Source of the DNA: Hyphomicrobium denitrificans ATCC 51888
GTDB lineage: Bacteria > Pseudomonadota > Alphaproteobacteria > Rhizobiales > Hyphomicrobiaceae
Length of the DNA: 64,000 nucleotides
NCBI RefSeq assembly: GCF_000143145.1
Contig: NC_014313.1
Span: forward strand, 3,038,001 to 3,102,000
Direction of reading: 5' to 3'
Of this stretch, positions 7,708 through 59,680 are shown in pieces. Each line of letters begins with the position of its first letter. The stretch's first letter is position 1. Below the pieces are notes generated by a model. It did no database searches. It was not told where the DNA came from and was given only the letters and a program-made list of their open reading frames with translations. The translations under genes were made by a program, and so were the position numbers.

Positions 7708-8319
7708 ATGCAGCCGCCGCCGAATCCTCTTTCTGTCCTCGTCATCGACGAAAACCGGCTGCGCGCGTCGGTGATCGAGGCCGGGCTGCGAGATGCGGGT
7801 TATGTCAACCTGACGATCGTCCATGACGTCGTCGGTATCGCGCGCCGCATCACCGAGATCGAGCCTGATGTCATCGTCATCGACCTCGAGAATCCCAATC
7901 GCGATATGCTCGAAAACATGTTTCAGCTTTCGCGCGCGGTGAAGCGGCCGATCGCAATGTTCGTCGACCACTCGGATAGTGCATCGATCGAGGCAGCGGT
8001 CGATGCCGGTGTCTCCGCCTATGTCGTCGATGGCTTAAAGAAAGAACGCGTCAAGCCACTCTTGGACATGGCGATCTGTCGTTTCAACGCCTTTTCGCGC
8101 ATGGTCCGCGAACTCGAAGAAGCGCGATCCGAACTCGAAAACCGCAAGCTTGTTGACCGTGCCAAGGGCATCCTCATGGCGACACGGGGCCTTTCGGAGT
8201 CGGAAGCCTACGCACTTCTGCGCAAAACCGCGATGAACCAGAACCGAAAGATTGGGGAGATTGCCGAAGGTTTGATAACGGCGGCCGGGCTTCTGTCGCC
8301 GCGTGAGGGGGAGCGATAA
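7708..8319 (+). CDS. nasT: NasT-type ANTAR response regulator (nitrate antiterminator)
   Basis: A 203-residue protein from ATG 7708 (GTG 7696 is in frame 12 bp upstream). An N-terminal receiver-like domain (L-S-V-L-V-I-D-E onward) is joined by a coiled helix (about 130-145) to a C-terminal ANTAR domain (D-R-A-K-G-I-L-M; S-E-S-E-A-Y-A-L-L-R-K-T-A-M). ANTAR proteins bind paired RNA hairpins and stop transcription terminators from forming. In NasT systems, NasS holds NasT inactive until nitrate binds NasS. Here nasS follows immediately and a leader with a terminator precedes narK, which fits this model. Confidence 0.93.
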   Translation: MQPPPNPLSVLVIDENRLRASVIEAGLRDAGYVNLTIVHDVVGIARRITEIEPDVIVIDLENPNRDMLENMFQLSRAVKRPIAMFVDHSDSASIEAAVDAGVSAYVVDGLKKERVKPLLDMAICRFNAFSRMVRELEEARSELENRKLVDRAKGILMATRGLSESEAYALLRKTAMNQNRKIGEIAEGLITAAGLLSPREGER

Positions 8320-8321
8320 TC

Positions 8322-9548
8322 GTGGGCGGCGCAAACCAAATAACGGCGGGCTTCTTGCCGCTTCTAGACAGTGCGGTTCTCGTCGTTGCGAAGGAGCTGA
8401 ACTTTGCGGCGGCTGAGGGTATCGATCTCGCCCTGGCGCGTGAAACCTCGTGGGCGAACATTCGTGATCGATTGGCCGTGGGGCATTTTCAGGTCGCTCA
8501 TGTTCTTGCGCCGATGCCAATCGCCTGCAATCTCGGGCTGACGCCCCTCGTCGTGCCGACGATTGTCCCGATGGCGCTCGGTCTTGGTGGAAATGCGGTT
8601 ACGGTCTCGAATGCCTTGTGGGCCGACATGGTGGACAAGGGAGCAAGGGCCGACTTCGACCCGGCAGCGACTGGCCGGGCGTTGAAAGCTGTCGTCACAG
8701 ACCGCGGCGCTTCCACATCGAAGCCGATGCTGCGCTTCGCCGTGGTCCATCCTTACTCAGGGCACAACTACGAATTTCGCTATTGGCTGGCAGCCTGCGG
8801 AATTGATTCATCACGCGATGTCGAGATCGTCATTGTTCCGCCTCCGCTGATGTTGGACGCATTGGCGAGTGGCACAATCGATGGCTATTGCGTGGGCGAG
8901 CCATGGAATACTGCGGCCGCTCTTGCCGGCAAGGGACACATCGCAACGGTCAAAGCCGCGATTTGGCGGTCCAGTCCGGAAAAGGTCCTGGGCGTGAGCG
9001 CGCGTTGGGCGGAAGATAATCTCGATGTGCTTTCCGCGCTTCTGCGGGCGCTTTGCAAGGCTGCGGAATGGTGCGGCAATGCGCGAAATCGCGGTGATCT
9101 CGCGCGCATCCTGGCCGAAAAAAGCTATGTCGGCCGGCCTCGCGAGTGGCTGCTCCCGGCGCTCGAAGGAGAATTACCGGACGGAAGCGGAGACACGAAA
9201 GCGGTCGCAGATTTCTTTGTTCCGTTCGCGAAGGCCGCGACGTTTCCGTGGAAGAGCCACGCACTCTGGTTCTATTCGCAGATGGTCCGCTGGGGACAAA
9301 TCCAACACAGCGCGGAACATGCGCGGATTGCGCGAGAGACGTACCGGCCCGACCTCTATCGAGCGGCATTGAAACCGCTGGGTATCGCGCTTCCGGTCGC
9401 GAATGCCAAAGTGGAGGGCGCGCTCACCGCCGCTACCCCAGTCGGGTCATCCGGCGCCAGCTTGGTGCTTGGGCCGGACGGCTTTTTCGACGGCGGTTTG
9501 TTCGATCCCGACAAGCTCGATTCCTATATAGCGAGTCAGAAGCTCTGA
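8322..9548 (+). CDS. nasS: NasS-type nitrate/nitrite sensor (NrtA/CmpA-like)
   Basis: A 408-residue protein starting at GTG 8322, two bases after the nasT stop. It has the NrtA/CmpA solute-binding fold: an early G-F-L-P-L-L-D-S-A motif, H-P-Y-S-G-H-N-Y-E-F-R-Y-W-L in the middle, and G-Y-C-V-G-E-P-W-N ligand-pocket residues. There is no signal peptide, which separates cytoplasmic NasS sensors from periplasmic nitrate-binding proteins. Adjacency to nasT supports the role: it sequesters NasT without nitrate and releases it when nitrate or nitrite binds. Confidence 0.92.
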   Translation: MGGANQITAGFLPLLDSAVLVVAKELNFAAAEGIDLALARETSWANIRDRLAVGHFQVAHVLAPMPIACNLGLTPLVVPTIVPMALGLGGNAVTVSNALWADMVDKGARADFDPAATGRALKAVVTDRGASTSKPMLRFAVVHPYSGHNYEFRYWLAACGIDSSRDVEIVIVPPPLMLDALASGTIDGYCVGEPWNTAAALAGKGHIATVKAAIWRSSPEKVLGVSARWAEDNLDVLSALLRALCKAAEWCGNARNRGDLARILAEKSYVGRPREWLLPALEGELPDGSGDTKAVADFFVPFAKAATFPWKSHALWFYSQMVRWGQIQHSAEHARIARETYRPDLYRAALKPLGIALPVANAKVEGALTAATPVGSSGASLVLGPDGFFDGGLFDPDKLDSYIASQKL

Positions 9549-18193: not shown

Positions 18194-18493
18194 TTACCCC
18201 TTGAAATCTTGCGTTGGCGGCGACGCCTTGAGCCCGGCCCGGCACACGGAACGCTCGGCGCGCATCGCGTTGAACGCGCGCTTATTCTCTTGCTCACGCC
18301 GCGACGTCGCCTTGCTGCGCTCGCCGTCGACCGGCGGGCTCTTCCAAGCAGGGTCAGGCGTCAGACATTCGTTTGGCGGCGACACCTCGACGTTGCGGAC
18401 GACGATCGTCGGCTCCGGCGGCTCGGACGAGCAACCGCCACCGTTGCCCATCAGGAAGGGGACGAGAAAAACGACGGCGAGAGGCCATTTCAT
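18194..18493 (-). CDS. Outer-membrane spanin candidate (Rz1-like lipoprotein)
   Basis: A 99-residue ORF whose ATG overlaps the i-spanin stop in ATGA. It has a lipoprotein-like signal (M-K-W-P-L-A-V-V-F-L-V-P-F-L) leading to N-G-G-G-C-S-S, then a proline-rich segment (S-S-E-P-P-E-P). This is the build of o-spanins, which join the i-spanin to fuse inner and outer membranes in lysis. The lipobox is unusual: glycine at -3 instead of an aliphatic residue. At 99 residues it is long for an Rz1. Confidence 0.68.
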   Translation of the reverse strand: MKWPLAVVFLVPFLMGNGGGCSSEPPEPTIVVRNVEVSPPNECLTPDPAWKSPPVDGERSKATSRREQENKRAFNAMRAERSVCRAGLKASPPTQDFKG

Positions 18494-18885
18494 TTGCGCA
18501 GGATCCTTGTGATTTCCGGCGTGTAGCAAACCGGGTTGTCTTTCAGCGCGGCGAGTTCCTGTTCCAACTCGCGCACCTGGTCGACGGCGGCCTCGGCTTC
18601 GGCCCGCGCCTTGTCGCGCTCGGCGTTCGCTGCGCGCTCGCGCTGCGCGCGCGCAGCGGCTTCCTCGTTCCGCGCTTTGTCGGTCGCGGCAGTGAGCGTT
18701 TTCGTCCAAGCGAGATCTCGGCCCGCGATCGCGCCGTCGACGATCACGCCCTTCAGCCACACGATGCTGCCGACGACGAGCACGATGGCGAGGACGATCA
18801 GGGCGGCGACGCCGATCGCGCCGCCACCGATCTGTTTGGCTCGGGTCTTGAGCCGCGCGAAGAGGAGGGCGAGTGCGGTCCACAT
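18490..18885 (-). CDS. Inner-membrane spanin candidate (Rz-like)
   Basis: ATG 18885 shares a base with the lysozyme stop (TGATG). The 131-residue product has one transmembrane segment (about 25-50, A-L-I-V-L-A-I-V-L-V-V) followed by a long alanine-, glutamate- and arginine-rich coiled coil and C-Y-T-P-E-I near the end. Type-II membrane topology with a periplasmic coiled coil next to a small lipoprotein gene is the usual Rz/Rz1 pair layout. Role inferred from topology and position. Confidence 0.75.
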   Translation of the reverse strand: MWTALALLFARLKTRAKQIGGGAIGVAALIVLAIVLVVGSIVWLKGVIVDGAIAGRDLAWTKTLTAATDKARNEEAAARAQRERAANAERDKARAEAEAAVDQVRELEQELAALKDNPVCYTPEITRILRK

Positions 18886-19766
18886 CACACCGCCTCCTGC
18901 CTGATGAGACGCCCGCGCCCGAACCAGCCGACGAGCCCACCCGTCAGCGCACACACTCCGACGATGAACGCCTGATTGCTCGCCAGCGTGAGCAGGAACA
19001 GCACGAGGTCAAAATGCCCATTGCTGTAGGCGGTGCTGGCTGACTGCGTAACGGCCAGAAGCGTGCTCGCACTGCCGGCGCCGGTCGTGACGATCGCCGC
19101 CTTTCCCTCGCTCGTGTCGAACGTCCTCTCCGGCCGCTCGTCGTAAGCTTTGCCTTGGCAGGCGGCCTGCTCGTCGCCGGCGAACTCCGGCTCGACAGCG
19201 AAGAAGCCCCCGAAAGCCACGGCGCTGCCGGTCCCGGCCCATGCGAGACCTTGCTGCTCGATGCCGTCACAGCGGCGCATCCAACCCTTGCCGAAGCGCC
19301 AGAATGTTTTGATCTGTCGCAGGAACGAGCGGCGCTGCGCCATGATCCCCTCGACGAGTTCATCCGGATCGGCGGCGTCGATCGCGGCAAGCGTGATCTG
19401 CCCGATGCGGCCGTCGGCGGCGACACCCAGCGCGCGCTGCATGGCCTTCACGGCGCGCGGCGGCCCGGAGTTGACGCCGAAGTCGAACACCGCGAGATCG
19501 ACACCCTTCGGCAGCTCGTCAGCGCGGACCTCGTCCCAGTAGCTGTGCCGGTAAATTTCCTGCTCTTCGGCCTGGGCGATCAATCTGACGTCGCGTTTCG
19601 ACAAGCCTTTGCGCGCCCGGTAGGCATCGTATTCGCGCTGGATGATGCCGTGCATCGTCGCGCCGCCAGGATCGTATTTGTCGTTCGAGTAGCCGCCCTC
19701 CCATTTGAGCGTCTGTGCCAGGCACGCGCGAAATCGCGCCTCGGCATCTGCCGGTGCGTTGGTCAT
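18885..19766 (-). CDS. Endolysin, glycoside hydrolase family 108 type
   Basis: 293 residues. The N-terminal GH108 lysozyme domain shows L-K-W-E-G-G-Y-S, with the catalytic Glu in the E-G-G-Y motif, and D-P-G-G-A-T-M-H-G-I. The second part (about 110-180) fits the companion peptidoglycan-binding region (G-V-A-A-D-G-R-I-G-Q). A C-terminal extension of about 100 residues holds two hydrophobic segments (about 240-285) ending G-W-F-G-R-G-R-L, so the enzyme may be membrane-tethered. There is no N-terminal signal; release would need a holin. It cuts peptidoglycan at lysis. Confidence 0.88.
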   Translation of the reverse strand: MTNAPADAEARFRACLAQTLKWEGGYSNDKYDPGGATMHGIIQREYDAYRARKGLSKRDVRLIAQAEEQEIYRHSYWDEVRADELPKGVDLAVFDFGVNSGPPRAVKAMQRALGVAADGRIGQITLAAIDAADPDELVEGIMAQRRSFLRQIKTFWRFGKGWMRRCDGIEQQGLAWAGTGSAVAFGGFFAVEPEFAGDEQAACQGKAYDERPERTFDTSEGKAAIVTTGAGSASTLLAVTQSASTAYSNGHFDLVLFLLTLASNQAFIVGVCALTGGLVGWFGRGRLIRQEAV

Positions 19767-19906
19767 GGGTTCCCCCGATTTTGGATGTGGTGAAAGACTA
19801 CGGCGTGAGAGGCAACAGCGATGCTGGAAGCATCGCGAGCAGTTCAGGGATCGTGAGCGTCACATTTTGAACGCTTCGGCTTGTGCCGGTGCGTTGGTCA
19901 GGGGTT
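19749..19906. repeat. Imperfect direct repeat upstream of the lysozyme gene
   Basis: Bases 19749-19771, covering the lysozyme start region, recur at 19884-19906 with 22 of 23 matches. On the minus strand the upstream copy reads L-T-N-A-P-A-Q-A-E-A, almost the lysozyme start M-T-N-A-P-A-D-A-E-A, but with CTG for ATG and an early stop. It looks like a remnant of a duplicated or replaced gene start. The 169-base gap it lies in otherwise holds a 21-codon GTG frame and no recognised gene. Confidence 0.75.
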
Positions 19907-47025: not shown

Positions 47026-48128
47026 CTATTCGATGACACGATCGCGGGCCTTCCCGCGCGGCAACGGCTCGAACGGTCCCAGCGCATCGAGCCCGCCCGC
47101 CGTGATGACGAGGATGTCATATCCCTCGATGAACCCGTTAGACCGCAGCGCGCCGAGCGCGTTCTTGAAGCCCCCGCCGCCGACAGCGTAGCCAGTCAGA
47201 AGCGCCACCTGCACTTTCGTTCGTCCGTCGGGATATTGAGCCAGCGCCGTCAGGACGAGCCGCTCCGCCTTGCCAAGCGAACAGCTGGTCGATGAAGCCG
47301 GGCCCGACGCAGGCGCGCGCTCTTCTTGCACCGTCGCAATGCGCGAGGCCGGCTCAGGCGCCGCGTCGACCGGCCCTACATCGTTCGGCCTGAGTGACTT
47401 CAACGCCGAGACGGCATCATGGATGGCGCGTCCGTAGCCTTCCGACTGCCCAACGCGCCGGAATTCTTCACCGGCTGCAGCTCGGCCGCGCTCTTCCGCC
47501 TCGCGCAGCGCGCGCGGGTCTGGCGCCGCCGCCTTCCCGGCGTTTGCGAGTTCCTTTTCAAGCTCGGCGACCTTCGCCTTGAGCCGCTTCGGATCGTTCT
47601 CCTCAGCGTCCTCCAGCGCCTCGCCGATGATCGCGCGCAATTCCTCCTGATCTACGGCCGCCGTCTGGACGTCGATGATCTCCTCATCGTCCGTCGGCGT
47701 CGCGGCGTTGTCGAACGTCGAGAATTTGGGGAACGCTCAGCCATGTCGAGGATCGACAGCGGCAGTTTGCCGGAGCCGACGATTTGGCCGATGGCCGAAC
47801 CGGCGGACGAATGCAGCGGCACGTGCCCGCGCGGCCCGCCGAGGATCTTGAATGGAAGGCCGGGCTGGCTGCCGTCGGCGCTGGACGTGATCCCCCACCA
47901 GTCCGACTTGATCGTATCGAGGATGCAGACCCGGAAGCCGCCGGCGACAACCTGCTCGACGGCGAGTTTCGATGTCGACGTCTTGCCGCTGCCGGTCTTG
48001 CCGATGATGGCGGCGTGCTGCGACAGCGCCGCGCTCGGTATGCATTCCGCCACGATCGTCTCCCTCTCACTTGCTGGCACCCCGGCCCCGAACAAATCGC
48101 CTTTCATCATCGTCATTCCATCGGTCAC
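47026..48128 (-). pseudogene. HerA/DUF87-type ATPase gene broken by an internal deletion
   Basis: The first 131 codons from 48128 encode a HerA-type N-terminal ATPase start with Walker A G-K-T-G-S-G-K-T (residues 43-50) and S-I-L-D-M-A-E. At about 47736 the reading frame is lost. In another frame the sequence resumes at once as A-F-P-K-F-S-T-F-D-N-A-A-T-P and runs into the helical and winged C-terminal part (E-L-R-A-I-I-G-E-A-L) ending at 47026. The Walker B, arginine finger and core between them, probably 150-200 codons in intact relatives, are missing. The N-terminal frame continues 27 arginine-rich codons to a stop at 47652. The C-terminal part has no good start (TTG 47640 only). Confidence 0.8.
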
Positions 48129-48580
48129 GGTTTGCTCTCCGAAAGAAGGGCGTGGATTAATTTGACGGCGCGGTTTTTTGTGACATTCCCGGCCGCCTCG
48201 GCGATGAGTTCCGGCGGCGACGACAGCATAATCTTTTGCGTTTCGTCGTGCGGTTCGCCAACGATAACTGGCATTTCGAGAATGGCGGTGATGACATCCT
48301 CTATCGCCTTACGCCTCGCCTCATCGGCGGCACGTTTGATTTCATCGTCCTTTTCGTTGAGTTGCCGCGACGCATCGAGAATGAGCTTGCCACCTAACTT
48401 TCTCGCCTCATCGAGTTGAGCGCGAAGGGACGTGATCTCGGCGAGCGCCAATTCATGGGTTTCGATGTCCAGTGCGAACGATTGTGCTAGTTCACCAGCC
48501 GTCGCGCTGCCTTTGAGTATCTGTAGCTGCTTGATGCTCGATTGCAGTCGCAGGACCGCTTTGCTAGGTGTCTCGCTCAC
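48125..48580 (-). CDS. Coiled-coil hypothetical phage protein
   Basis: 151 residues with a predicted coiled coil at about 40-95 (E-L-A-L-A-E-I-T-S-L-R-A-Q-L-D-E-A-R; E-K-D-D-E-I-K-R-A-A-D-E). Overlaps the neighbouring starts by ATGA on both sides. No domain recognised. It sits directly before the broken ATPase gene and may once have worked with it. Confidence 0.55.
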   Translation of the reverse strand: MSETPSKAVLRLQSSIKQLQILKGSATAGELAQSFALDIETHELALAEITSLRAQLDEARKLGGKLILDASRQLNEKDDEIKRAADEARRKAIEDVITAILEMPVIVGEPHDETQKIMLSSPPELIAEAAGNVTKNRAVKLIHALLSESKP

Positions 48581-48960
48581 TTCACCGCTCCATTAGTAGA
48601 GGGGCGCACGACCGCCGGTTTGAACGTCGCGTTCCGCAATAGCTCCGCAGCACGAGCCTCGCCGAATGTTTCGTATGCGGTGCCGTCCAGCACGAACGCC
48701 CGTTCCTGCACCCAATTCCCACGATGCTTGTGGCTGTCGATTTGTAACGTGACCTTGGTTTCGCCAGCAGGGTCCACGTATTGCGCGATCGCTATTCCAT
48801 TTCCGCTCATGTGCATGATTGCCTGCCAATTCGGCTCAACGTGCAATGCTTCGGCGGCCGAGCGGTATTCGGCGACGGCGCGCTCAATCTGATCCGGTCG
48901 CAATCCCGTGGCACTTGCGGCAGCAGCGGCGGCATCGGAGTTTATGGGCGCTTTGCTCAT
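48577..48960 (-). CDS. Hypothetical phage protein ending in a P-S-T-N tail
   Basis: 127 residues. An alanine-rich start is followed by D-Q-I-E-R-A-V-A-E-Y-R-S-A-A-E and a beta-rich middle (T-K-V-T-L-Q-I-D-S-H-K-H). It ends V-R-P-S-T-N-G-A-V-K, a divergent form of the shared C-terminal tag seen in the next five upstream genes. Function unknown. Confidence 0.58.
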   Translation of the reverse strand: MSKAPINSDAAAAAASATGLRPDQIERAVAEYRSAAEALHVEPNWQAIMHMSGNGIAIAQYVDPAGETKVTLQIDSHKHRGNWVQERAFVLDGTAYETFGEARAAELLRNATFKPAVVRPSTNGAVK

Positions 48961-49121
48961 CCCCGCACCTTTTCTGTAGAGGGGGCTTCAACCGTGCCAC
49001 TGCCTCCGCAATCGGGACACTCGGCTACGGCTTCATCACCTTTGTCGCCGGTCCGAGGGTTCAAATACCGATCCCAATCGGTGACAATCTCGCCGTTCCC
49101 TTGGCAGCGTTCGCACGTCAT
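48957..49121 (-). CDS. 54-residue zinc-finger protein (DnaJ-like cysteine pairs)
   Basis: ATG 49121 and the stop at 48957 overlap neighbouring genes (ATGA both sides). The product has M-T-C-E-R-C-Q-G-N-G and C-P-D-C-G-G-S-G-T-V, two C-x-x-C-x-G-x-G-like knuckles as in the DnaJ zinc domain. It ends E-A-P-S-T-E-K-V-R-G, the shared tag. It probably binds one zinc ion; role unknown. Confidence 0.7.
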   Translation of the reverse strand: MTCERCQGNGEIVTDWDRYLNPRTGDKGDEAVAECPDCGGSGTVEAPSTEKVRG

Positions 49122-49393
49122 CCCCGCACCTTTGCATCTGTAGAGGGGGCGCTGTCGGACAAATGCACAATCTGATCGACGGCGTGCCCTTCGGCGTGCG
49201 TGTTGGATCGCAGGAGTAACTTCACCAAGCCATCGACCTGAAACGCAGAGAGCTTCATGTAGAAATCAGCGCTTTCTGGCAACGCACATTGCACGTGCCG
49301 CAATGCTTGCACGAGCGCGAAGGCGTCATCTCCGCGAATGAATATCCCGGGCCAGTCATCGCCGCACTGGACCACTCCGGTTTCAAGCCTCAT
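49118..49393 (-). CDS. Hypothetical phage protein ending in A-P-S-T-D-A-K-V-R-G
   Basis: ATG 49393 (overlapping the previous stop as ATGA) gives 91 residues: M-R-L-E-T-G-V-V-Q-C-G-D-D-W-P-G, then helical segments. No domain recognised. The C-terminal tag is nearly identical to those of its neighbours. Confidence 0.58.
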   Translation of the reverse strand: MRLETGVVQCGDDWPGIFIRGDDAFALVQALRHVQCALPESADFYMKLSAFQVDGLVKLLLRSNTHAEGHAVDQIVHLSDSAPSTDAKVRG

Positions 49394-49659
49394 GGCTGAT
49401 CCTTTGCATCTGTAGAGGGGGCGCTGAGAGCTTCCCACATCAATACTGGCCCACCTTGCCGCCCGCTAAAGCTGTATGTATCTGGCCGTGACCTGACCAA
49501 TCCGTCGCGCTGTAGCTGCTTCATGTGCTTTCGCGCGGCGTCGGTGGACATCGCGAAGCGGGCTGCGATATCCACTGTGTCGGCACCGCCGCAAGCGCGC
49601 ACCCAATCAAGGATTGAAACCGCTCCGCGTTTGTCACGAATTGATGCGATAACGGCCAT
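49390..49659 (-). CDS. Winged helix-turn-helix protein ending in A-P-S-T-D-A-K-D-Q-P
   Basis: ATG 49659 (TGATG overlap; GTG 49662 is also possible) gives 89 residues. The middle, A-D-T-V-D-I-A-A-R-F-A-M-S-T-D-A-A-R-K-H, with L-Q-R-D-G-L-V, is a winged-helix DNA-binding motif. It is a candidate transcription factor for the early region. Its C-terminus carries the shared tag. Confidence 0.68.
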   Translation of the reverse strand: MAVIASIRDKRGAVSILDWVRACGGADTVDIAARFAMSTDAARKHMKQLQRDGLVRSRPDTYSFSGRQGGPVLMWEALSAPSTDAKDQP

Positions 49660-50006
49660 CACAGCACCTCATCAGTGCTGAGAGCAGCGCGACCTGCTTC
49701 GGGCAAATAGGGCACCCATTCTTCGCGGCGCACTTTCCCGGAATAACCGCACTCGTCACACCCGATGCCGACACGGCATTGTGCGCTGTCGTCCCAGTCA
49801 TAATTGTGCGCGAGGCCACCGTATTCGCCGCCTTCGAAGCAGCCAGAGCATGAGTCAGTCCACCGTACAATCTGGAGGACGCAGGGCATTCCGTAGGCTG
49901 GCTTCGGATCGAAAGCGTATTTGCGCCGCCGATCAACGCGATGCCCAAGGATGCGTTCTGCCTCTCGTGCGCTGATGTCTCGGATTTTATTGCGCCGATC
50001 GCTCAC
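49659..50006 (-). CDS. Cysteine-containing hypothetical protein ending in A-L-S-T-D-E-V-L
   Basis: 115 residues from GTG 50006, which overlaps the previous stop. C-S-G-C (about residues 53-56) and C-D-E-C-G-Y (about 84-88) could bind zinc. W-V-P-Y-L-P-E-A-G precedes the tag. Its family is unknown. Confidence 0.58.
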   Translation of the reverse strand: MSDRRNKIRDISAREAERILGHRVDRRRKYAFDPKPAYGMPCVLQIVRWTDSCSGCFEGGEYGGLAHNYDWDDSAQCRVGIGCDECGYSGKVRREEWVPYLPEAGRAALSTDEVL

Positions 50007-50881
50007 GACGTCACCTCGTCAGTGCTGAGCTTCCCCGCTTCGCTTGCAGGCTGAGAGAGACGGGCCAAGGCATTTTTGGTCAAATGCTCGATCTCGCGGA
50101 GCGCGTTGGAGATACCGAAAACATTCGCGTTGGACTTCGCACTGTCAGTCTCAGCTTCTTCTCGCTCGCGCCACGCCTCAAGCAGCGCATCGCGCAACGC
50201 TTCGGCCGTCGCCTCGAGAATATTCTCCGCGTCGTCGCATTCGCCGCTTTCAACGGGATGGTTTTCCGAGAATTCCGTTCCGGTATCGGGATTTAAATAC
50301 AGGTAGCCAATTGGCCAGTTTGCAGGCTGAGGCGCGCCTTTAAGAGCGGCACGGGCTCGCAAGAACTCGCTTTCGGCAAAGTGATCGGTAACGCGTTCTC
50401 GAATTGCCGCATCGAGAATGTCTGTACCGTCTTCCGCCGAGAACCCAAAATGGGCGAACGGCTCAAGAGCCTCCCTCAATATCCCGACATCATCTGATGT
50501 CTGCCGGTCACTTTCCGAGTTGCGCGGAAATCCCGCCGAACTGACGTAAGGCTCGACGGTCCACGCATCCTCATCAGCAGCGTGGACGGCTTCAGCATCC
50601 TCGCGGCGGGCGTATCGCGTTGCCTTTTCGCGATCAGGTGTCCATGCCGGTCCGAAGTCGGTCCAGTAACGCCATTCGGTGCCTCTGCCATTGCCAACGA
50701 TCCACGCGGAATGATGCCGATCGTTTACAGGGAGGGTGGAGAGAGCGGCGTCGATTTTTGCGAGCGCAGATCTCACTGCGTTGCCATCGCCAAACTGGCG
50801 GCCGTGGGTTTCCTCATCGCCTTCAATGTAAAGGCGTGCTTGCTCGAGCGCATCGCGAGAAATCTTCATTACGTCCGTCAT
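50003..50881 (-). CDS. Hypothetical phage protein ending in K-L-S-T-D-E-V-T-S
   Basis: ATG 50881 gives 292 residues; the open frame extends upstream but is out of character (arginine-rich). Segments include W-I-V-G-N-G-R-G-T-E-W-R-Y-W-T-D-F and a helical acidic C-terminal half. I recognise no domain. It is the first gene of the tagged run. Confidence 0.55.
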   Translation of the reverse strand: MTDVMKISRDALEQARLYIEGDEETHGRQFGDGNAVRSALAKIDAALSTLPVNDRHHSAWIVGNGRGTEWRYWTDFGPAWTPDREKATRYARREDAEAVHAADEDAWTVEPYVSSAGFPRNSESDRQTSDDVGILREALEPFAHFGFSAEDGTDILDAAIRERVTDHFAESEFLRARAALKGAPQPANWPIGYLYLNPDTGTEFSENHPVESGECDDAENILEATAEALRDALLEAWREREEAETDSAKSNANVFGISNALREIEHLTKNALARLSQPASEAGKLSTDEVTS

Positions 50882-50886
50882 CGCCC

Positions 50887-51399
50887 TCACCCCTCCACCT
50901 TCGTCGCCATTGCGATCAGCCAGTCCATCCGGCGCAGCAGTTCCGCGTCCGTCCAGATTTCGACGTTGCAGCGTTTGGCGTGCGCGCGGATCGCGGTCTC
51001 GACCAGGCCGGGCGCTGCTTCCTCCGTCGTGAAGCTCATCCACTCGCCCTTGCCGTCGTCGAAGCAGTCGCGCAGGCTGCCGTAGGTGTCCTGCCAGAGC
51101 CGGTCGGCACTGTTCCAATCGTCAGCCCAGAAGCGCAGGATCAGCGCGCGGTCCTGGTAGGGCTCGTTCGCAGACAGGACCGGGCTTTTGCGGTCCTCCC
51201 AGGACTGCGTCAGTCCCATGAGGATCGGCCAGCCGCCTTGATTGTCGCCCCAGTAGCGCTGTTGCGGACCGGAGAGATTGGCCGCCACCCAGAGCGCCGT
51301 CGGGCCGATTTCCTCAAACGCGAACCGGCGCGCGGGCGAAAGCTTCGGAACAGCGATGCGCTTCCAGCGCGGCGCCGTCGTGTCGTTGGCTGCGATCAT
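50887..51399 (-). CDS. Hypothetical phage protein
   Basis: 170 residues. W-K-R-I-A-V-P-K-L-S-P, then G-G-W-P-I-L-M-G-L-T-Q-S-W-E-D-R and F-W-A-D-D-W-N-S-A-D-R, a tryptophan-rich central region. No known family. Overlaps the following membrane-protein stop (ATGA). Confidence 0.55.
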   Translation of the reverse strand: MIAANDTTAPRWKRIAVPKLSPARRFAFEEIGPTALWVAANLSGPQQRYWGDNQGGWPILMGLTQSWEDRKSPVLSANEPYQDRALILRFWADDWNSADRLWQDTYGSLRDCFDDGKGEWMSFTTEEAAPGLVETAIRAHAKRCNVEIWTDAELLRRMDWLIAMATKVEG

Positions 51400-53247: not shown

Positions 53248-53297
53248 CACTTCGCCTCCCCGACAAACAAAAAGGCGAATTCTGGAAGCTGATCCAT
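53247..53297 (-). CDS. 16-residue ORF coupled on both sides
   Basis: M-D-Q-L-P-E-F-A-F-L-F-V-G-E-A-K. Its ATG shares a base with the DUF2312 stop and its stop shares a base with the next ATG (TGATG twice). It fills the gap between these genes exactly. It probably acts to hand on ribosomes, not as a stable protein. GGGGAGG inside it can be the Shine-Dalgarno of the next gene. Confidence 0.4.
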   Translation of the reverse strand: MDQLPEFAFLFVGEAK

Positions 53298-53689
53298 CAG
53301 TTCAGATCCTTGTTGCCCTTGAACGGGACGACGTCGCCGCCCCGCTTCGCTTTCTTCTCTTTCTTCGGTTCAGGGAGTTCGCCCGCGTCCTCGGCGGCGC
53401 GCTTCTGCGCGTCTTCGAGCGTGACGGGCAGGCCGAGCGCCGAGCGATAGGTGTCGAGCACCAGCTCCATCTCGAGCTGGCTGCATTGGAATGAAGCACC
53501 GCGGCGCTTCTCTTTGACGACCTGGTTGAAGACCTTCATGTCGTAGCCTTCGGCCTTCGCGTCGGATTTGATCTCCTTGGCGCGGTCCTGCAGCTCGGCG
53601 ATGTCGTCGAGCACGCCCGCAAGTTCCTCGGCGCGGCCTTTGAGATCCGCGTTGGCGTTCGCGCCGAGGGTGAGGGTTTCGTCGGACAT
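53297..53689 (-). CDS. DUF2312/GapR-like DNA-binding protein
   Basis: 130 residues. The core (R-A-K-E-I-K-S-D-A-K-A-E-G-Y-D-M-K-V-F-N-Q-V-V-K) matches DUF2312, the family of the Caulobacter nucleoid protein GapR, which clamps overtwisted DNA ahead of replication forks. The N-terminal helix (A-E-E-L-A-G-V-L-D-D-I-A-E-L) provides the coiled coil. A lysine-rich C-terminal tail (about 105-130) is an extension beyond the short form. In this phage it sits among replication genes and may aid phage DNA synthesis. Confidence 0.87.
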   Translation of the reverse strand: MSDETLTLGANANADLKGRAEELAGVLDDIAELQDRAKEIKSDAKAEGYDMKVFNQVVKEKRRGASFQCSQLEMELVLDTYRSALGLPVTLEDAQKRAAEDAGELPEPKKEKKAKRGGDVVPFKGNKDLN

Positions 53690-54144
53690 CAGGCGACGGC
53701 CTCGGCGCTGGCGGCCATCGCATCGGCTTCATCTGACGGAGAGATGAATTCACCGGTCACGGCATATAGCGGTAGACCGAGGGCCGTCTTGAGTATCTGC
53801 TCTCCCGTCGATCTATCGACGAGCACGCCGTCATCTTCATGGATAAGAAATCCAGTCAGAACGCAGCGGGTCGGCGCGTCGAGTTCGTCAGTCACGACCG
53901 GGCCATACTCTTCACAATCCTCCCATTTCGCATGAGCTTTGTCGTAGGCGTCGTTGAGGGCAACGATCGCCGGATCGCCATGATTTTCGATCACATCACC
54001 ATCGACATCGATATGTGCGCTACCGCAAGCCTCGCGAAGTTTGTCCCATGCGTCTTCTGCAGCTTGGAAAAGCCGCTCCGCTTCGCGCCGCGCCTCCGCG
54101 TCCGGGACGTTGGCAATGAACTGTGTGCGCTGTTCTGGTGTCAT
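53689..54144 (-). CDS. Hypothetical acidic phage protein
   Basis: 151 residues (M-T-P-E-Q-R-T-Q-F-I-A-N-V), strongly acidic, helical at start, with C-V-L-T-G-F-L-I-H-E-D-D-G-V-L-V. TGATG coupling to DUF2312 downstream. Acidic composition could suggest DNA mimicry; not supported further. Confidence 0.52.
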   Translation of the reverse strand: MTPEQRTQFIANVPDAEARREAERLFQAAEDAWDKLREACGSAHIDVDGDVIENHGDPAIVALNDAYDKAHAKWEDCEEYGPVVTDELDAPTRCVLTGFLIHEDDGVLVDRSTGEQILKTALGLPLYAVTGEFISPSDEADAMAASAEAVA

Positions 54145-54159
54145 GATCGTTCCCCTGTT

Positions 54160-55911
54160 TCAAAACATGCTGGCTTGCTGGTCTTCGGGTACGCATACGG
54201 GTTCGGGTTTCGCTGGCGGTGCCGCGAGATGGCTCTTGCCTTGCAGGTAAAGCTCCGCAAGCTGACGGATGCGCGTGCCGTCAGAGTTCTGCTCTTTCGG
54301 TTCCGAAAGCGGATCGACGATGCCGGCGGCCTGCGAATTCTTCAGGCCGATGACGCCCATGACGGCGGGATCACTGCCGCCGTCGGCAACGAGGTAGATC
54401 GCGTCGACCTGATGCTCTTGTCCCGGCCGATCGAGGCGCGCAACGCACTGCTCGTGCACCTTGCCCGACCAATCGAGTTCGCCGAAGACGATCGTGCGGC
54501 AGCGCTGTTGCAGTCCATCAAGCCCAGCGCCCGAACGTAGCGACATGATCAGCAGGTTCGATGCGCCATCCATGAACATTTGGACGGCTTTGGCCTTCTG
54601 GCGCGGGCTTTCCGAGCCGGTGTAGAGCACCGGATTGAACTCGCTAAGCTCGTCCATCCAAATGTCGTAGACGTCGCGATGCCAGCCACAGAGCAGCACC
54701 GGCTGCTTCGCTTCGAGCAGGAAGCGGACGAACGCGGCGACGTGCTTCGCCTTCGCGACGCCGGTGTCGTGCCGCATCATCATGTCGAATTCGCGCGCCG
54801 CTTGCCCGCGCTCAGTGAACGAACCGGAGATCACCTGCCGGGCAAGCTGCGCCATCTGCGCCGCGCGGTCCTCGAGCGGCTTCTCGTCATACGAAATCGT
54901 GTGAATGATCGTGTTGGCGAACTTGCGCTCGTGTCCGACGTCGGTGCGCGTCCGGCGAAGCGCCAGGTGCGACTCGCGGAGGAATGTTCCCAGCGCCTCG
55001 GTATCTTTGACGAGCCACTTGCCGCCCGGACCGGGCTTGCACCACTCGCGAATGAAGTCCCACCAATCGCCGAGGCAGCCTTCCTCGAGAAAATCGCAGA
55101 TGCGCCAGATTTCCTCGCCGTAATTGTAGATCGGCGTGCCCGAGAGACCGAGCACGAGTTGAGCCAGGCGCGCGAAGGCCTGCGCGGCCGCACCTTTCGC
55201 CGTCGTCGATCCGGAGCGTAGCTCTTGAATTTCGTCGAACACGACGGACTTGAAGCCGGCGGTCTCGGCGTAGTCGATCCAACCCGCCAGCTTCGAATAT
55301 GGGCAGATGACGACGTCGACGGGCGGCAGCTGATACGGCGTCGTCCGCTTGACGATGTGCGTGCGAAGCTCGGTGAACTCGCCGATCTTCTCAGCCCACT
55401 GCCCAGGCAGGTGCGTTTGCGGAACGACGAGCGCGGGCAGATAGTCCGGCGCGACAATCGCGGCGATCGCCGACACCGTCTTGCCCAGGCCCATCTCGTC
55501 CATCAGCAGCAGGCGGCCGGTGCGGCGCACGAGTTCGGCCGCCTGCACCTGATAGCTGTATGGCCGCATGTTGCCGCGGAAGCCGACCGACGCCGGCGGC
55601 ATCCAGTTCGGAGCGAGGATGGCGCCAAGCTCAGTCTGCTGCGTTTCGAACAGCATCTTTCGCCCGCCCATGCGTTCGGCATCGTCTGCGGAGATCCGCA
55701 GCGGATAGCGATCCATGAACCATTTCAGGTCGGCGTCGAGTTGCGGACCGCCGGTCAGCACGAACGGCGGTTTCGCCGTCTTGTTGATGCGCGCGAAGAC
55801 CTGTTTCAGACGGATCGCGACGTGCGGCTCGATCGACGTGATGGCCCAGCCTTTGCCGTTCCACTCGATGGCGCCGTAGGTACGGTTGTGCGCGAGCAGG
55901 GGGGCGGTCAT
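54160..55911 (-). CDS. SNF2-type DNA helicase/translocase
   Basis: 583 residues. Helicase motif I is D-E-M-G-L-G-K-T (138-145), motif II is D-E-I-Q (in V-V-F-D-E-I-Q), motif III region G-L-S-G-T-P, and motif VI D-R-P-G-Q. This is superfamily 2, SNF2/HARP-like. The protein ends Q-Q-A-S-M-F, which fits the bacterial sliding-clamp binding consensus (Q-x-[S/D]-[L/M]-F) at the very C-terminus. It probably works at phage forks or in repair. Stop-start overlap with the DUF2786 gene. Confidence 0.9.
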   Translation of the reverse strand: MTAPLLAHNRTYGAIEWNGKGWAITSIEPHVAIRLKQVFARINKTAKPPFVLTGGPQLDADLKWFMDRYPLRISADDAERMGGRKMLFETQQTELGAILAPNWMPPASVGFRGNMRPYSYQVQAAELVRRTGRLLLMDEMGLGKTVSAIAAIVAPDYLPALVVPQTHLPGQWAEKIGEFTELRTHIVKRTTPYQLPPVDVVICPYSKLAGWIDYAETAGFKSVVFDEIQELRSGSTTAKGAAAQAFARLAQLVLGLSGTPIYNYGEEIWRICDFLEEGCLGDWWDFIREWCKPGPGGKWLVKDTEALGTFLRESHLALRRTRTDVGHERKFANTIIHTISYDEKPLEDRAAQMAQLARQVISGSFTERGQAAREFDMMMRHDTGVAKAKHVAAFVRFLLEAKQPVLLCGWHRDVYDIWMDELSEFNPVLYTGSESPRQKAKAVQMFMDGASNLLIMSLRSGAGLDGLQQRCRTIVFGELDWSGKVHEQCVARLDRPGQEHQVDAIYLVADGGSDPAVMGVIGLKNSQAAGIVDPLSEPKEQNSDGTRIRQLAELYLQGKSHLAAPPAKPEPVCVPEDQQASMF

Positions 55912-56708
55912 GCCTTTCCCCCAATCATGCGTGTGCCTGCAGTCGACGCGGCAATACCGAGATGAATGTTAGCTTTCGATCCGGCCTCTCCTCCGCGCGC
56001 AAGCTCGTCCCCAATCACCAGAATGGGTTTCGCTTTTCGCGGGTCCTTCGCGTCCGGGCAAAGTTGACGCAACGCAATTGCGAGCGCGGTCGACGTTGAA
56101 CGAGCAACGTCCTTACCTGTGGCAGCACTAACGTCACGATGCCTCGCGCTGGCCATGTCTGCGAGGCGTTCGCCCAGGCGTATTGCCATTCCAATCTTGA
56201 AGCTTTTCGCCGATTTGGAGATGCGCTTCTCGTAGACGGATCGAGCAACTATGGTTGCCCGACGGCCTTCGCGAGCCTCTGAAGCCAACGTCTCGTAGCG
56301 AGCGCGCATTGCAGCGCGTCTGGCCTTCCAAGCCGTGTCGATCAACGACACCAGCATTTCCCAGAGATATTCCGCGATTTCTATATTGTGCGCGGCGCCG
56401 ACCACGATCAGGCGTTGCCAGCCGAACGCAATTTCGGTGTCCGTATAGGCCGCGATTCCACAAGCCGCGAACCGCGTCGGATGCGTTCGCGACAACGTCG
56501 GCGCAACACCGCGCATAGGCTTATCCTTGCGCTCAAAAGCACCGGCTTCTGGCGTAGCCGCTTCGGTCTCCGATATCTGATGTTTGGCCATCAGCTTCGA
56601 GATCATCCGAAGCGCGGTTTCGGCTTCTGCTTCAGTCGCACCTTTATCGACGGTCATCCGTCGAAGCGCCCTGATCTTGTCGATAATTTCTCGCTTTGCG
56701 GCCGTCAT
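55908..56708 (-). CDS. DUF2786-domain protein
   Basis: 266 residues. The N-terminal 50 residues (I-I-D-K-I-R-A-L-R-R-M-T-V-D-K-G-A-T-E-A-E-A) are the DUF2786 domain; the rest resembles the DUF7168-type extension often attached to it. Common in phages and plasmids, function unknown. Translation coupled to neighbouring nuclease and helicase genes. Confidence 0.8.
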   Translation of the reverse strand: MTAAKREIIDKIRALRRMTVDKGATEAEAETALRMISKLMAKHQISETEAATPEAGAFERKDKPMRGVAPTLSRTHPTRFAACGIAAYTDTEIAFGWQRLIVVGAAHNIEIAEYLWEMLVSLIDTAWKARRAAMRARYETLASEAREGRRATIVARSVYEKRISKSAKSFKIGMAIRLGERLADMASARHRDVSAATGKDVARSTSTALAIALRQLCPDAKDPRKAKPILVIGDELARGGEAGSKANIHLGIAASTAGTRMIGGKA

Positions 56709-57061
56709 AACCAGGCCCTCGCCATGTCGACGACGACGATCGGTTTCTCGCGGATCATTGTCGGGCAGAGAGGGACCGGCTTCGACGTGATGAGGATGAT
56801 TCCGGAAATCGAAGGCTCGGCCGTATAGCCTTTGATCTGCCGGACGATTGCCGAGGGCTGGCCCTTGATCTTGACCTCGATGCCGATGCTGTCATCGACT
56901 AGGAAATCGATGATGCCGCCGACGATCCGCTGCTCACGGCAGCAGCCGAAGCCGTGAGACCGCAGTCGTTGCTCGATTGCCGATTGCGTCGTTTTCTCGT
57001 CCTCGAGCGGAAAACGTCCGGCGCGCAGGCAAACGACGAGGCTGTGCATCAGAGGCGTCAT
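56705..57061 (-). CDS. PD-(D/E)xK-type nuclease candidate
   Basis: 118 residues. I-I-D-F-L-V-D followed by I-G-I-E-V-K-I-K is the D...E-x-K core of the PD-(D/E)xK fold, and R-Q-I-K-G-Y downstream supplies a Q/Y helix. Small stand-alone nucleases of this kind occur in phage replication and recombination modules. It overlaps the DUF2786 and MT-A70 genes. Confidence 0.7.
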   Translation of the reverse strand: MTPLMHSLVVCLRAGRFPLEDEKTTQSAIEQRLRSHGFGCCREQRIVGGIIDFLVDDSIGIEVKIKGQPSAIVRQIKGYTAEPSISGIILITSKPVPLCPTMIREKPIVVVDMARAWL

Positions 57062-57672
57062 GCCGACACCTCGCCGAGCTTTCCTGTTTCATCCCCCCAC
57101 ACGTCCCAGCCCTTTCGGTTCGTGCGGGAAAACAATTCGACGCGACGCGCGCCGGGCATCATCTGCTCAGCAGCGCGATAGGCTTCTTCCGGCTTTTGCG
57201 AATGTTCACGAACGCGCCCCATGACGACGGAACGCACGTTGCGCGCCGTCTCCGGATTGCCGCGCGTGCCGATCAGGAAAGGCTCGTGCGCGTTGCGAAG
57301 CACGTAGCCGGTCCCGAATGCGATCTTGTCGTTGACGGTCGTCTTGACCCAGACGCCGGACGTTTTGAATTCAAAGCCCCAGGCTTTCAGAACCCCGATC
57401 TGCTCGTCGAGCATCGGGGCCGTCGCCCACATCCAGAGCAGACAATCGTCCGCCGCGAGACCGGCGACCGGCAACGCGCGGATGTCGCCGATCGTCATCG
57501 TGCGATAATGCGCCTGCGCCGACTTCTCCTCGCCCTTCTCGGAGTAGAGTTCGAACCGCCACGGCGGATCGGCCATGATGAAGTCGTAGGCTCCGGCCGT
57601 CAGATGCGGCCAAGGCCAGTACCCGCGCATCTCGGCTTCGGAGAACAGCAGGGGTTCGACGTGGAGGGTCAC
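57058..57672 (-). CDS. MT-A70-family adenine methyltransferase
   Basis: 204 residues from GTG 57672. The catalytic D-P-P-W is in I-M-A-D-P-P-W-R-F near residue 36. W-A-T-A-P-M-L and K-P-E-E-A-Y are further MT-A70 motifs. In phages this family usually methylates adenines in DNA (N6). Likely protects phage DNA from host restriction or marks it for regulation. Confidence 0.92.
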   Translation of the reverse strand: MTLHVEPLLFSEAEMRGYWPWPHLTAGAYDFIMADPPWRFELYSEKGEEKSAQAHYRTMTIGDIRALPVAGLAADDCLLWMWATAPMLDEQIGVLKAWGFEFKTSGVWVKTTVNDKIAFGTGYVLRNAHEPFLIGTRGNPETARNVRSVVMGRVREHSQKPEEAYRAAEQMMPGARRVELFSRTNRKGWDVWGDETGKLGEVSA

Positions 57673-57794
57673 TGAGCCACCTCCGCAATCGTACTGAGGA
57701 AGGGAAGGGCCGAGCGTTCGACGAACTGCGGTAAACCCGATAAGATGTATTTGCGCTCAGCTAGCGCGCTACCGAAATGCGAGGCGTCTAACCA

Positions 57795-58031
57795 ATGGAA
57801 TTCGAAACAGCGATCAAACTGAAATCTCTTGACGGCTTTCCTTCCGAGTTGCGAACGGTCGGCGACGCGCGGACTTTCTTCGAGGCCCACGTGAAGACGC
57901 TGCCCGCCACCCAAGATAGCCTCGCTTGGCGCACGGCCGGCTCTGCGATCGAAAATTCTCGCGACCCATGGCATATCCGCAGAGCGGTTGCGCATGCGTT
58001 GGCCGACGCTGGTTGGATTGAAGGCGAGTAA
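57795..58031 (+). CDS. DUF982-like small protein, on the opposite strand
   Basis: 78 residues: M-E-F-E-T-A-I-K-L-K-S-L, then V-G-D-A-R-T-F-F-E-A-H-V-K, A-W-R-T-A-G-S-A-I and A-V-A-H-A-L-A-D-A-G-W-I. This is the layout of DUF982 proteins, common in Rhizobiales. Ribosome binding site weak. A minus-strand frame (57669-58037) covers the same bases with 4-bp overlaps to both flanking genes, so which strand is coding is not certain; the plus-strand protein looks more natural. Confidence 0.55.
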   Translation: MEFETAIKLKSLDGFPSELRTVGDARTFFEAHVKTLPATQDSLAWRTAGSAIENSRDPWHIRRAVAHALADAGWIEGE

Positions 58032-58033
58032 CA

Positions 58034-59680
58034 TCATGCTGCGACCCTCCCGCCTTCACGCACGACCTGGTTCCCGAAGTTCGCAGCAATGATTGCGCGC
58101 GCGAGCGGCGGGCAGACGGAGTTGCCGCAAAGCCGGATCTGGTCCGTCTTCGAAATCGGCGTGCCGTCCGGCAGCCGATCTATGACGTAGCTGTCGGGGA
58201 AGCCCTGAGCGCGGAACAACTCGCGCGGCGACAGCATCCGCATGCCGATGTCGACGATCTGGTAGTCGACGCCGGCGACGGTCACGAGGCCGAGACGGGC
58301 CTTTGCCGTTGCGGTGTGCATCGGCTCATCGCAGCCCTGATGCTGCCCGCCAGTGCCGTAATATTTCATCAGGAAGGCGCGCACCTCGGCAAGGTGCTGG
58401 CCCTGCGCCGTGACGGTCCCGAACGGCTGGCGCATGTCCTGGCCGTCTTTGCAGCTGCCGTACATCTTCGTAAGAAACGTCGAGACGAGCTGCTGATGGC
58501 TGCATTTTGCGGTGAGCGTCGAGACTGGCTCTTCGAGCGAATGACCGACCATGCCGCCGTTGTGCTGCGCCATGAACGCGGCGACGAGCCCGGCGCCGTT
58601 TGCCGTGGCGGTGACCGTCGGCATCGGCTGCTCGACGTCGCGGCAGCGCGGCTCCTGCGTCGCATGCTCGCCGTGGCGCGGCACGAAGAACGGCGCCACC
58701 AAGCCGATTGGTGGCGCCCCGCCCGGCCGCTTGATGAAGCTGTTTGCCGTGACTGAGCACATCGGATCATCGAGCGACTGTCCGGTGCTGTTCGCGCGGA
58801 ATTTCGTAAGGAACGGCGCGACGAGCGCCTTCTCGCCGCGATGCGCGCCGGTCAGCGTCTTGAACGGTTCGTCGATGTCCTCGACGCGGCCGCCATGCGT
58901 CAGGTTGATGATGAACGGCCGCTCCGCATCGATGACATACCGCTGCACGCCGCGTGCGATACGCGCCATCGTCTTCTCGGCGAGCGGACGCCCACGTCCG
59001 AAGATCGAGGGGCAGGGCAACGACCAGTCGATGCATTCGGCGGCCGTCCGCCACGGCTTTCTCAGTCCGGCCCCGACCTCGAGCGAACCCGGCTTCGCGT
59101 GCGTCGGCTCCGGCCAGACGATCGGCAGTCCATCCCGGCGCGCGATCAGAAACAGGCGCTTGCGGATTGTCGGCGCGCCGTAGTCGCAGGCCTTGAGTTC
59201 GCGCCAGTCGACCTCGTACCCGGCCTGGCGCAAGCGTTCGACGAAAAGCCGGAAAGTCCGGCCTTTTCTTTCCGGACATGGCAGATTGTCCGGACCCAGA
59301 GGTCCCCAGTCCTGGAACTCTTCAACATTCTCAAGGATGATGAGCTGAGGCTTCACCGCGACGGCCCAGCGGATCACGACCCAAGCCAGTCCGCGAATTT
59401 TCTTCTCGACGGGCTTGCCGCCTTTGGCCTTCGAGAAATGCTTGCAGTCCGGTGAAAACCACGCCAGCGACACCGGCCGGCCCTTCGTCACCGCGCGCGG
59501 ATCGACGGCCCAGACGTCCTCGACGTGGTGCTCGGTATGCGGATGATTGGTGGCGTGCAGGCCCAGCGCGATCGCGTCGTGATTGATCGCGATATCCGGC
59601 CCCTTCCAGCACGCCATTTCAACACCGAGCGACGCCCCGCCGCCGCCCGCGAAGTTATCGATGATCAGACCCGGTTTCAT
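58034..59680 (-). CDS. C5-cytosine DNA methyltransferase with repeated recognition region
   Basis: 548 residues. Motif I is F-A-G-G-G-G-A-S-L-G (10-19); motif IV has S-P-D-C with catalytic C79; motif VI is E-N-V (117-119); motif X region is Q-I-R-L-C-G-N-S-V (514-522). Between about 257 and 459 there are six related units of 22-28 residues ending P-x-x-T-[V/L/A]-T-A-like (for example 290-312, 369-391, 402-425). Relatives in phages share this. It methylates cytosine in a target that cannot be told here. Confidence 0.93.
   Translation of the reverse strand: MKPGLIIDNFAGGGGASLGVEMACWKGPDIAINHDAIALGLHATNHPHTEHHVEDVWAVDPRAVTKGRPVSLAWFSPDCKHFSKAKGGKPVEKKIRGLAWVVIRWAVAVKPQLIILENVEEFQDWGPLGPDNLPCPERKGRTFRLFVERLRQAGYEVDWRELKACDYGAPTIRKRLFLIARRDGLPIVWPEPTHAKPGSLEVGAGLRKPWRTAAECIDWSLPCPSIFGRGRPLAEKTMARIARGVQRYVIDAERPFIINLTHGGRVEDIDEPFKTLTGAHRGEKALVAPFLTKFRANSTGQSLDDPMCSVTANSFIKRPGGAPPIGLVAPFFVPRHGEHATQEPRCRDVEQPMPTVTATANGAGLVAAFMAQHNGGMVGHSLEEPVSTLTAKCSHQQLVSTFLTKMYGSCKDGQDMRQPFGTVTAQGQHLAEVRAFLMKYYGTGGQHQGCDEPMHTATAKARLGLVTVAGVDYQIVDIGMRMLSPRELFRAQGFPDSYVIDRLPDGTPISKTDQIRLCGNSVCPPLARAIIAANFGNQVVREGGRVAA

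Follow-up and report, generated by a model that had tools for sequence, protein, structure and literature searches.

How phage genomes become mosaic is debated, with exchange at short conserved boundary sequences on one side and illegitimate joining on the other. Here we examine an array of early genes in a prophage of Hyphomicrobium denitrificans ATCC 51888, located in a stretch of 64,000 nucleotides that we refer to as the window (positions 3038001–3102000 of the single-contig genome, NC_014313.1, 3,638,969 bases); the genes end in recurring short DNA sequences, which we call separators. The boundary (linker) sequences of lambdoid phages, reportedly treated by Susskind and Botstein in 1978 and by Clark et al. 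in 2001, are said to be short conserved DNA bordering non-homologous modules, proposed to serve homologous exchange; the PeSL (promoter plus stem-loop) cassettes of T4-type phages are said to have been described by Arbiol in 2010 and Comeau in 2014. PeSL are conserved cassettes with regulatory content for which a role in gene shuffling has been reported (PMC4503421). In mycobacteriophage Island3, genes 67 and 68 have the last 18 residues of their proteins and about 50 bp of DNA in common, which was read as recombination between boundary sequences and called the first mycobacteriophage case (PMC3029335). The start-associated sequences (SAS) of cluster K mycobacteriophages are repeats with a Shine-Dalgarno (SD) core just before the starts of genes from different families in the non-structural half; they follow one 13-bp consensus, and about half come with a 17-bp inverted repeat (PMC3203893). 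The lambda exo-xis region is a variable early region beside a recombination gene and includes ea22, a mosaic coiled-coil protein with swapped parts (PMC10834534).

We consider it likely that the separators serve as fixed homology anchors and translational couplers, and that homologous recombination at them exchanges the intervening DNA; the separators are not mobile by themselves. They resemble boundary sequences in being conserved short DNA flanked by non-homologous modules and in lying at gene ends (65 of 68 copies). They differ from the lambdoid ones in occupying most gene ends as well as sites within genes, and in forming a set of 18 sequences in near-fixed order, of which most gene-end members bear the ribosome binding site (RBS) of the next gene and read as an in-frame tail. 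Island3 is a single case, whereas here an ordered set recurs across ten arrays. Like SAS, the separators sit just before starts with an SD core (44 of 53 gene ends); unlike SAS, there are ten different separators, as blocks of up to 57 bp that extend into the upstream gene. The SAS consensus GGGATAGGAGCCC (at most two mismatches) was found neither in the window array nor in the separators read, and has one match each in three of the viral arrays introduced below (V2, V3 and L084). Neither part of a PeSL exceeds chance in the window region: sigma-70-like promoters number 0 against 0.8 expected (other promoter types would escape this search), and terminator-like sites 3 against 3.1, none of them within a separator. 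The palindromic fold of integron attC sites was not seen in the six separators that we folded (z −1.64 to 0.94). The exo-xis account, in the portion available, mentions no separator set, and our gene 1, a mosaic protein like ea22, has no Pfam match (E 0.1) and no PHROG match (0.01). The literature that we searched, thin on subscription journals, yielded no account of such an arrangement. The boundary-sequence principle is old; this extreme, ordered, RBS-bearing set with codon neutrality and within-gene linkers is, as far as these searches go, an undescribed, unusually clear variant of it.

In the window, six consecutive minus-strand genes (genes 1–6) end in tails that all fit [P/L]-S-T-[D/E/N]: ..LSTDEVTS, ..LSTDEVL, ..APSTDAKDQP, ..APSTDAKVRG, ..APSTEKVRG and ..PSTNGAVK. 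Stop and following start overlap at each of the six junctions, with an offset of −4. An earlier note, made from the letters of the window, had singled out these genes, and direct reading together with shuffles bears it out, coordinates included: motif A (CTCAGCACTGATGAGGTG, at most three mismatches) matches the window twice against 0.05 in shuffles, and the 22-nt motif B has two exact matches against 0.00, all four being junctions named there. The same note traced the tails to two repeated sequences. The repeats are real, with A and B present twice each, but they are not the only sources: the remaining tails come from B2 (B minus one codon) and C (only about the first 11 nt as in B). Gene 7 (48125–48580) has another separator at its end (LLSESKP), and five further conserved islands lie within genes 1 and 7.

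Searching the same genome with the region led to two further places, ~128000–142000 and ~1578000–1592000 (L008, L009). These are two sister prophages with 99.97% mutual identity across 12.7 kb, entered below as P2. Tails of the six genes are found again in both of them and in seven viral contigs, in many cases on unrelated genes. Motif scans of IMG/VR gave, besides the record of the own genome, five contigs with stretches V1–V5 (L073–L077), of which V4 stops shortly past separator B. The window, P2 and V1–V5 are the seven arrays that define the sequences; three more contigs (L084–L086), found with separators D and F2 and unused in the definition, bring the arrays to ten. Translated, the seven arrays have ten gene-end separators, in the order A, B, B2, C, D, E, F1, F2, G, H, and eight linkers (i0–i6 and d1) inside open frames of slot A and slot D genes, the slots being named after the separators. 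Scanning the seven arrays with the 18 sequences finds 85 hits, against none when they are reversed or reverse-complemented. L084, L085 and L086, the last reaching from D to H only, carry 11, 4 and 6 of the 18 (21 hits; 0 in controls), three of these hits, one per contig, being present by construction, as the search used D or F2. Across the ten arrays the order is constant in 103 of 106 hits. The earlier note had called the cassettes mobile-looking, which is not supported: their order is nearly fixed while the contents vary, and with the patterns tried they were not found outside this phage group.

The spacing of the slot A linkers varies between arrays, with the frame open throughout: i1 and i2 are 211 nt apart in the window and V1, 187 in V3, and joined directly in V2 and V5. 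The linker positions would correspond to domain boundaries. In V1 (L073 7036–7578) a seven-G run in separator B joins the slot B gene in frame to the next gene; this is either a natural fusion or a sequencing error, and it suggests how within-gene linkers could arise.

The genes that carry the same separator are often unrelated. Taking as unrelated those bodies that have no blastp similarity at 1e-3, we count 95 unrelated pairs among the 131 same-separator pairs; in 8 of these pairs a partner is one of two remnants whose bodies could not be compared for lack of length, a regex match at V3 5807 was excluded as spurious, and the V1 slot B gene was added by hand. Unrelated pairs make up 26/28 in slot B, 10/10 in C, 9/10 in B2 (four with a remnant), 6/6 in F2 and 3/3 in G. 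The carriers include a pentapeptide-repeat protein (A, V4), a DUF4326 protein (B2, V5), gene 5 (B2 or C), short unnamed proteins and, in slot B2 of L084, an HNH endonuclease. Segments between linkers in the slot A gene behave in the same way, with no relationship at E 0.01 in 14 of the 16 pairs, and V1 and V3 providing the two related ones. Conversely, similar bodies occur with different tails. The F2-carrier of V2 is ~50% identical to the F1-carriers of V3 and V5, and gene 5 ends in B2 in the window and in C in the sister prophages, where it recurs as 179 bp at 98.9% with a 45-aa body that is 100% identical as protein and lies downstream of a 41-aa gene bearing tail B. One body with two tails speaks against the tail belonging to the gene by descent.

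Despite their unrelated bodies, 60 of the 95 pairs match without interruption over 23 nt or more, and 31 of them over 31 nt or more; where the separators differ, 0 of 1242 unrelated pairs reach 23 nt and the maximum is 19. These lengths straddle the minimal pairing segments of 23–27 for Red beta and 31–34 for RecA given in PMC3945230. Little else is alike between the window and the viral arrays: blastn of the 64 kb against V1, V2, V3, V4 and V5 gives 11, 12, 14, 3 and 12 hits of at most 57 bp, all within the array save three to V2 near window 18–20 kb. The three outside the array, between window 18225–19900 and L074 14459–16163, are short inverted matches of 29–42 bp at 91–93%. Against P2, the window has the 179-bp piece of gene 5 and six short blastn hits.

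The variation among copies is blind to codon position. Where copies of the 18 sequences differ, positions 1:2:3 are hit 31:34:27 times, and 20 of the 92 differences are synonymous, compared with an expected fraction of 0.247 were every change as likely as any other. In the same phages, gene bodies give 85:63:237, with 208 of 385 synonymous (Fisher p 2.6e-8 for third positions and 1.5e-8 for synonymous changes, indicative only, as the copies are related). The body control consists of eight hand-chosen homologous gene pairs, a set that omits the divergent YqaJ pair of P2 and V2 (56:48:121) and includes two added pairs. What is conserved is thus DNA and not peptide, and the C-terminal tails look like by-products, as the earlier note had supposed. 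That note had also named an outcome that would make a cassette needless, namely tails found only on homologues of the six genes, paralogous by descent, and the data point the other way: tails are present on non-homologues, and most homologues of genes 4–6 lack them. Among homologues from a database of 5.8 billion proteins, tails A, B, B2 and C were found in 0 of 11 for gene 4 (self excluded) and 0 of 71 for gene 5; for gene 6, three of seven have a tail, these being close relatives (94–96% identical), and four do not. Gene 5 (TCERCQGNGEIVTDWDRY..GDEAVAECPDCGG) and its 71 relatives (P0020–P0090) have similar cores, and the start of gene 5 also matches the Rhizobium phages RHph_N2 and RHEph18.

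The separators mark gene ends and mostly carry the signals for the next start. When sought by DNA, with no stop required (the earlier collection of gene ends had used tail-plus-stop patterns), 65 of the 68 gene-end cores of the ten arrays run into an in-frame stop within seven codons, as do 19% of random places. The exceptions are the fused frame of V1, a copy of A in L084 and a copy of E where a contig ends. The earlier note's view of the tails as cassettes of gene end plus RBS is supported, and they are found on unrelated genes. In the seven defining arrays, an SD of at least 4 nt precedes the next start at 44 of 53 gene ends, against 14% of random 13-nt stretches, and the start lies exactly at offset −4 at 36 of 53. 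A start that opens an open reading frame (ORF) falls within −8 to +15 at 52 of 53 gene ends; with 42% of random places doing so, this figure carries less weight than those for the SD and for the exact offset. The separators thus look like couplers within an operon.

Could translation alone account for the conservation? The separators would then be tuned RBS or coupling elements, their identity reflecting mRNA function and not recombination. The SD counts and the exact offset fit such a role, and codon-neutral variation fits an RNA constraint as well as a DNA one. However, identity extends far upstream of the SD (a 48-nt B has zero mismatches between V2, V3 and V5), eight similar linkers lie within genes, and ten different sequences would be doing one job; moreover, the folds of six separators, computed as DNA (not RNA), are unremarkable, and the array stretch of the window has no Rfam match. 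We regard this explanation as unlikely, although it survives better than the remaining three.

It is very improbable that the separators are self-spreading mobile elements or integron-like sites of site-specific recombination. Some separators are indeed duplicated (A and B in the window, A in V3, B2 and F1 in V5), and linkers i4 and i5 of L084 are located behind D, but the near-fixed order, the many distinct sequences, the lack of significant hairpins in the six separators folded and the failure to find them outside the phage group with the patterns tried all argue against it. We give still less credence to functional C-terminal tags (for degradation or docking) selected at the protein level on many early proteins: the reading frame is preserved in gene-end copies and the tails are alike in style, yet synonymous changes are at 20 of 92 close to the expectation for equally likely changes and far from the 208 of 385 in bodies, each slot has a different tail, and homologues elsewhere mostly have none. 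Equally implausible is that the slot genes are orthologues or paralogues by descent, with bodies that changed more rapidly than the tails: although carriers in slots A, D, E and H have segments in common (10/36, 10/15, 7/10 and 3/3 pairs related) and several arrays are related outside the region, the bodies in slots B, C, F2 and G are unrelated, an HNH endonuclease sits in slot B2 of L084, and the two tails of gene 5 contradict it.

Homologous exchange at the separators could operate as follows. The region is an ordered row of gene slots in the non-structural part of the phage genome, split by separators of ~25–57 bp as shared blocks. Each separator combines the last codons of one gene with, in most cases, the RBS and the overlapping start of the gene that follows, and it offers homology that is often of sufficient length for homologous recombination. 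Crossovers in neighbouring separators would swap unrelated genes between phages, and unrelated in-frame segments between the gene 1 linkers could be swapped likewise. Crossing-over would take place where homology remains, with selection keeping frame and RBS; separators, reading frame and translational coupling would be kept, and a gene that fits the slot could be expressed at once. Duplicated separators would allow the gain or loss of slots. In V5, two very short ORFs of ~16 and 12 aa (L077 9630–9680 and 12262–12300) end in B2 and F1 and look like emptied slots.

Candidate enzymes for such exchange are encoded upstream of some arrays. The P2 array has genes for an Erf annealing protein (E = 1.4e-11) and a YqaJ exonuclease (6.7e-27) on its upstream side; V1 has close relatives of the two upstream, and V2 has distant relatives, at a distance of ~3 kb or more upstream. 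The Erf/exonuclease pair of phage D3 recombined diverged repeats efficiently in lambda, according to PMC3945230. Erf genes are present in the same cell as the window prophage, in its sister prophages. Erf and YqaJ may have a part in the exchange.

Several points weigh against the homologous-exchange reading or narrow it. The Erf/YqaJ pair is present in three of seven arrays (P2, V1 and V2), and in V2 it is not adjacent to the array but ~3 kb upstream; Erf was not found in the record of the window's own prophage (G108) nor in G105–G107 (G105 and G106 being only 10.6 and 13.7 kb), so that another recombinase, acting in trans, or host RecA must be assumed there. Exchange between phages is read from the pattern and the lengths, no exchange event having been seen. 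Of the 95 unrelated pairs, 35 fall short of an exact run of 23 nt, among them 18 of the 26 from slot A; slots D, E and H, with mostly related pairs, say little on swapping, and remote homology can escape blastp and its 1e-3 limit. At the junctions, no SD was seen at 9 of 53 (E, H and F1), and one L084 copy of A lies away from a gene end. Three hits are out of order, namely an extra F1 after F2 in V5 and i4 and i5 in L084; the latter two stand behind separator D, in a gene that ends in separator G (7994–8413). Longer DNA is common to some arrays outside the separators (3.1 kb in P2 and V1, 3.0 kb in V1 and V3, 1.5 kb each in P2 and V3 and in V2 and V4), V1, V2 and V3 come from one sample, and L086 resembles V3, which makes the arrays non-independent. 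Descent from common ancestors, followed by replacement of genes, thus contributes to the pattern. This common DNA and the 42% background of starts lower our confidence slightly, in favour of translation alone and of descent.

Going further, the separators might constitute an address system of sequence-distinct, ordered, expression-ready joints that is kept by selection for exchangeability and is not only leftover homology; we put this forward tentatively and hold it to be rather doubtful. If true, accessory early genes or protein segments would be swapped slot by slot with the operon unbroken. With regard to the mosaicism debate, boundary sequences are visible here at most gene borders and inside genes, even between phages that share little other DNA, and the codon-neutral variation and near-threshold lengths make the homologous route directly testable. 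The array suggests a simple way to find accessory early genes, as these may be anything between two separators. It also carries a warning: common C-terminal tails need not imply common function.

The features of the window array, all on the minus strand, are arranged as follows. Gene 1 (50003–50890, slot A) encodes a mosaic protein of 295 aa that ends in ..SQPASEAGKLSTDEVTS and contains linkers i1 (AALSTLPVN, 50721–50749; in six of the seven defining arrays), i2 (DRQTSDDVGIL, 50477–50509; in five) and i3 (RAALKGxPQPA, 50321–50353; in five). At its end lies the first copy of separator A (50001–50057, core 50012–50029), with GAGGT before the GTG of gene 2. Gene 2 (49659–50006, 115 aa) ends in ..RAALSTDEVL at the second copy of A (49657–49682). 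Gene 3 (49390–49659, 89 aa from ATG, ending in ..SAPSTDAKDQP) has weak winged-helix similarity below Pfam cut-offs; the first copy of B (49401–49431) there places AAGGA before the ATG of gene 4 (49118–49393, 91 aa, ending in ..SAPSTDAKVRG). The second copy of B (49118–49154) has AAGG before the ATG of gene 5 (48957–49121), whose 54 aa are zinc-ribbon-like with CxxCxGxG, below the Pfam cut-off, and which ends in B2 (APSTEKVRG, 48957–48986). Gene 6 (48577–48960, 127 aa) ends in ..RPSTNGAVK at separator C (48564–48606), with GGAG before the GTG of gene 7. The latter (slot D, 151 aa, coiled-coil-like by eye) contains linker d1 (AEI.SLRAQLDEAR, 48404–48448) and ends at separator D (ALLSESKP, 48122–48157).

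Searches beyond the arrays returned little. Motif A matched 25 viral stretches, in seven of which (L037–L042 and L058) it is a true LSTDEV tail at a stop; two of these (L038 and L058) are the record of the own genome. The other 18 were rejected: 17 read on in frame, and the stop in L052 was judged by its letters to be chance. For motif B, 99 of 102 other genomes of the family had no match, and three had two-mismatch matches (L062–L064) judged off-target by letters; exact motifs B and D gave 0 and 0 matches in the genome collection. Blastn of the region against annotated phages and plasmids gave four matches, none at separators. At 14 other viral loci with gene 5 relatives (L019–L032), junction repeats above threshold amounted to one pair (13 nt, L024; shifted readings of one single site were ignored), so the separators are not a general feature of gene 5 carriers.

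The prophage assignment of the window is based on portal, terminase and tail-fibre matches farther along. Adjoining the array, a HerA/DUF87-like gene (47026–48128, minus strand) is divided between two frames and looks interrupted. At 53297–59680 the prophage encodes a GapR-like protein, an SNF2-type helicase, an MT-A70 methyltransferase and a C5 cytosine methyltransferase.

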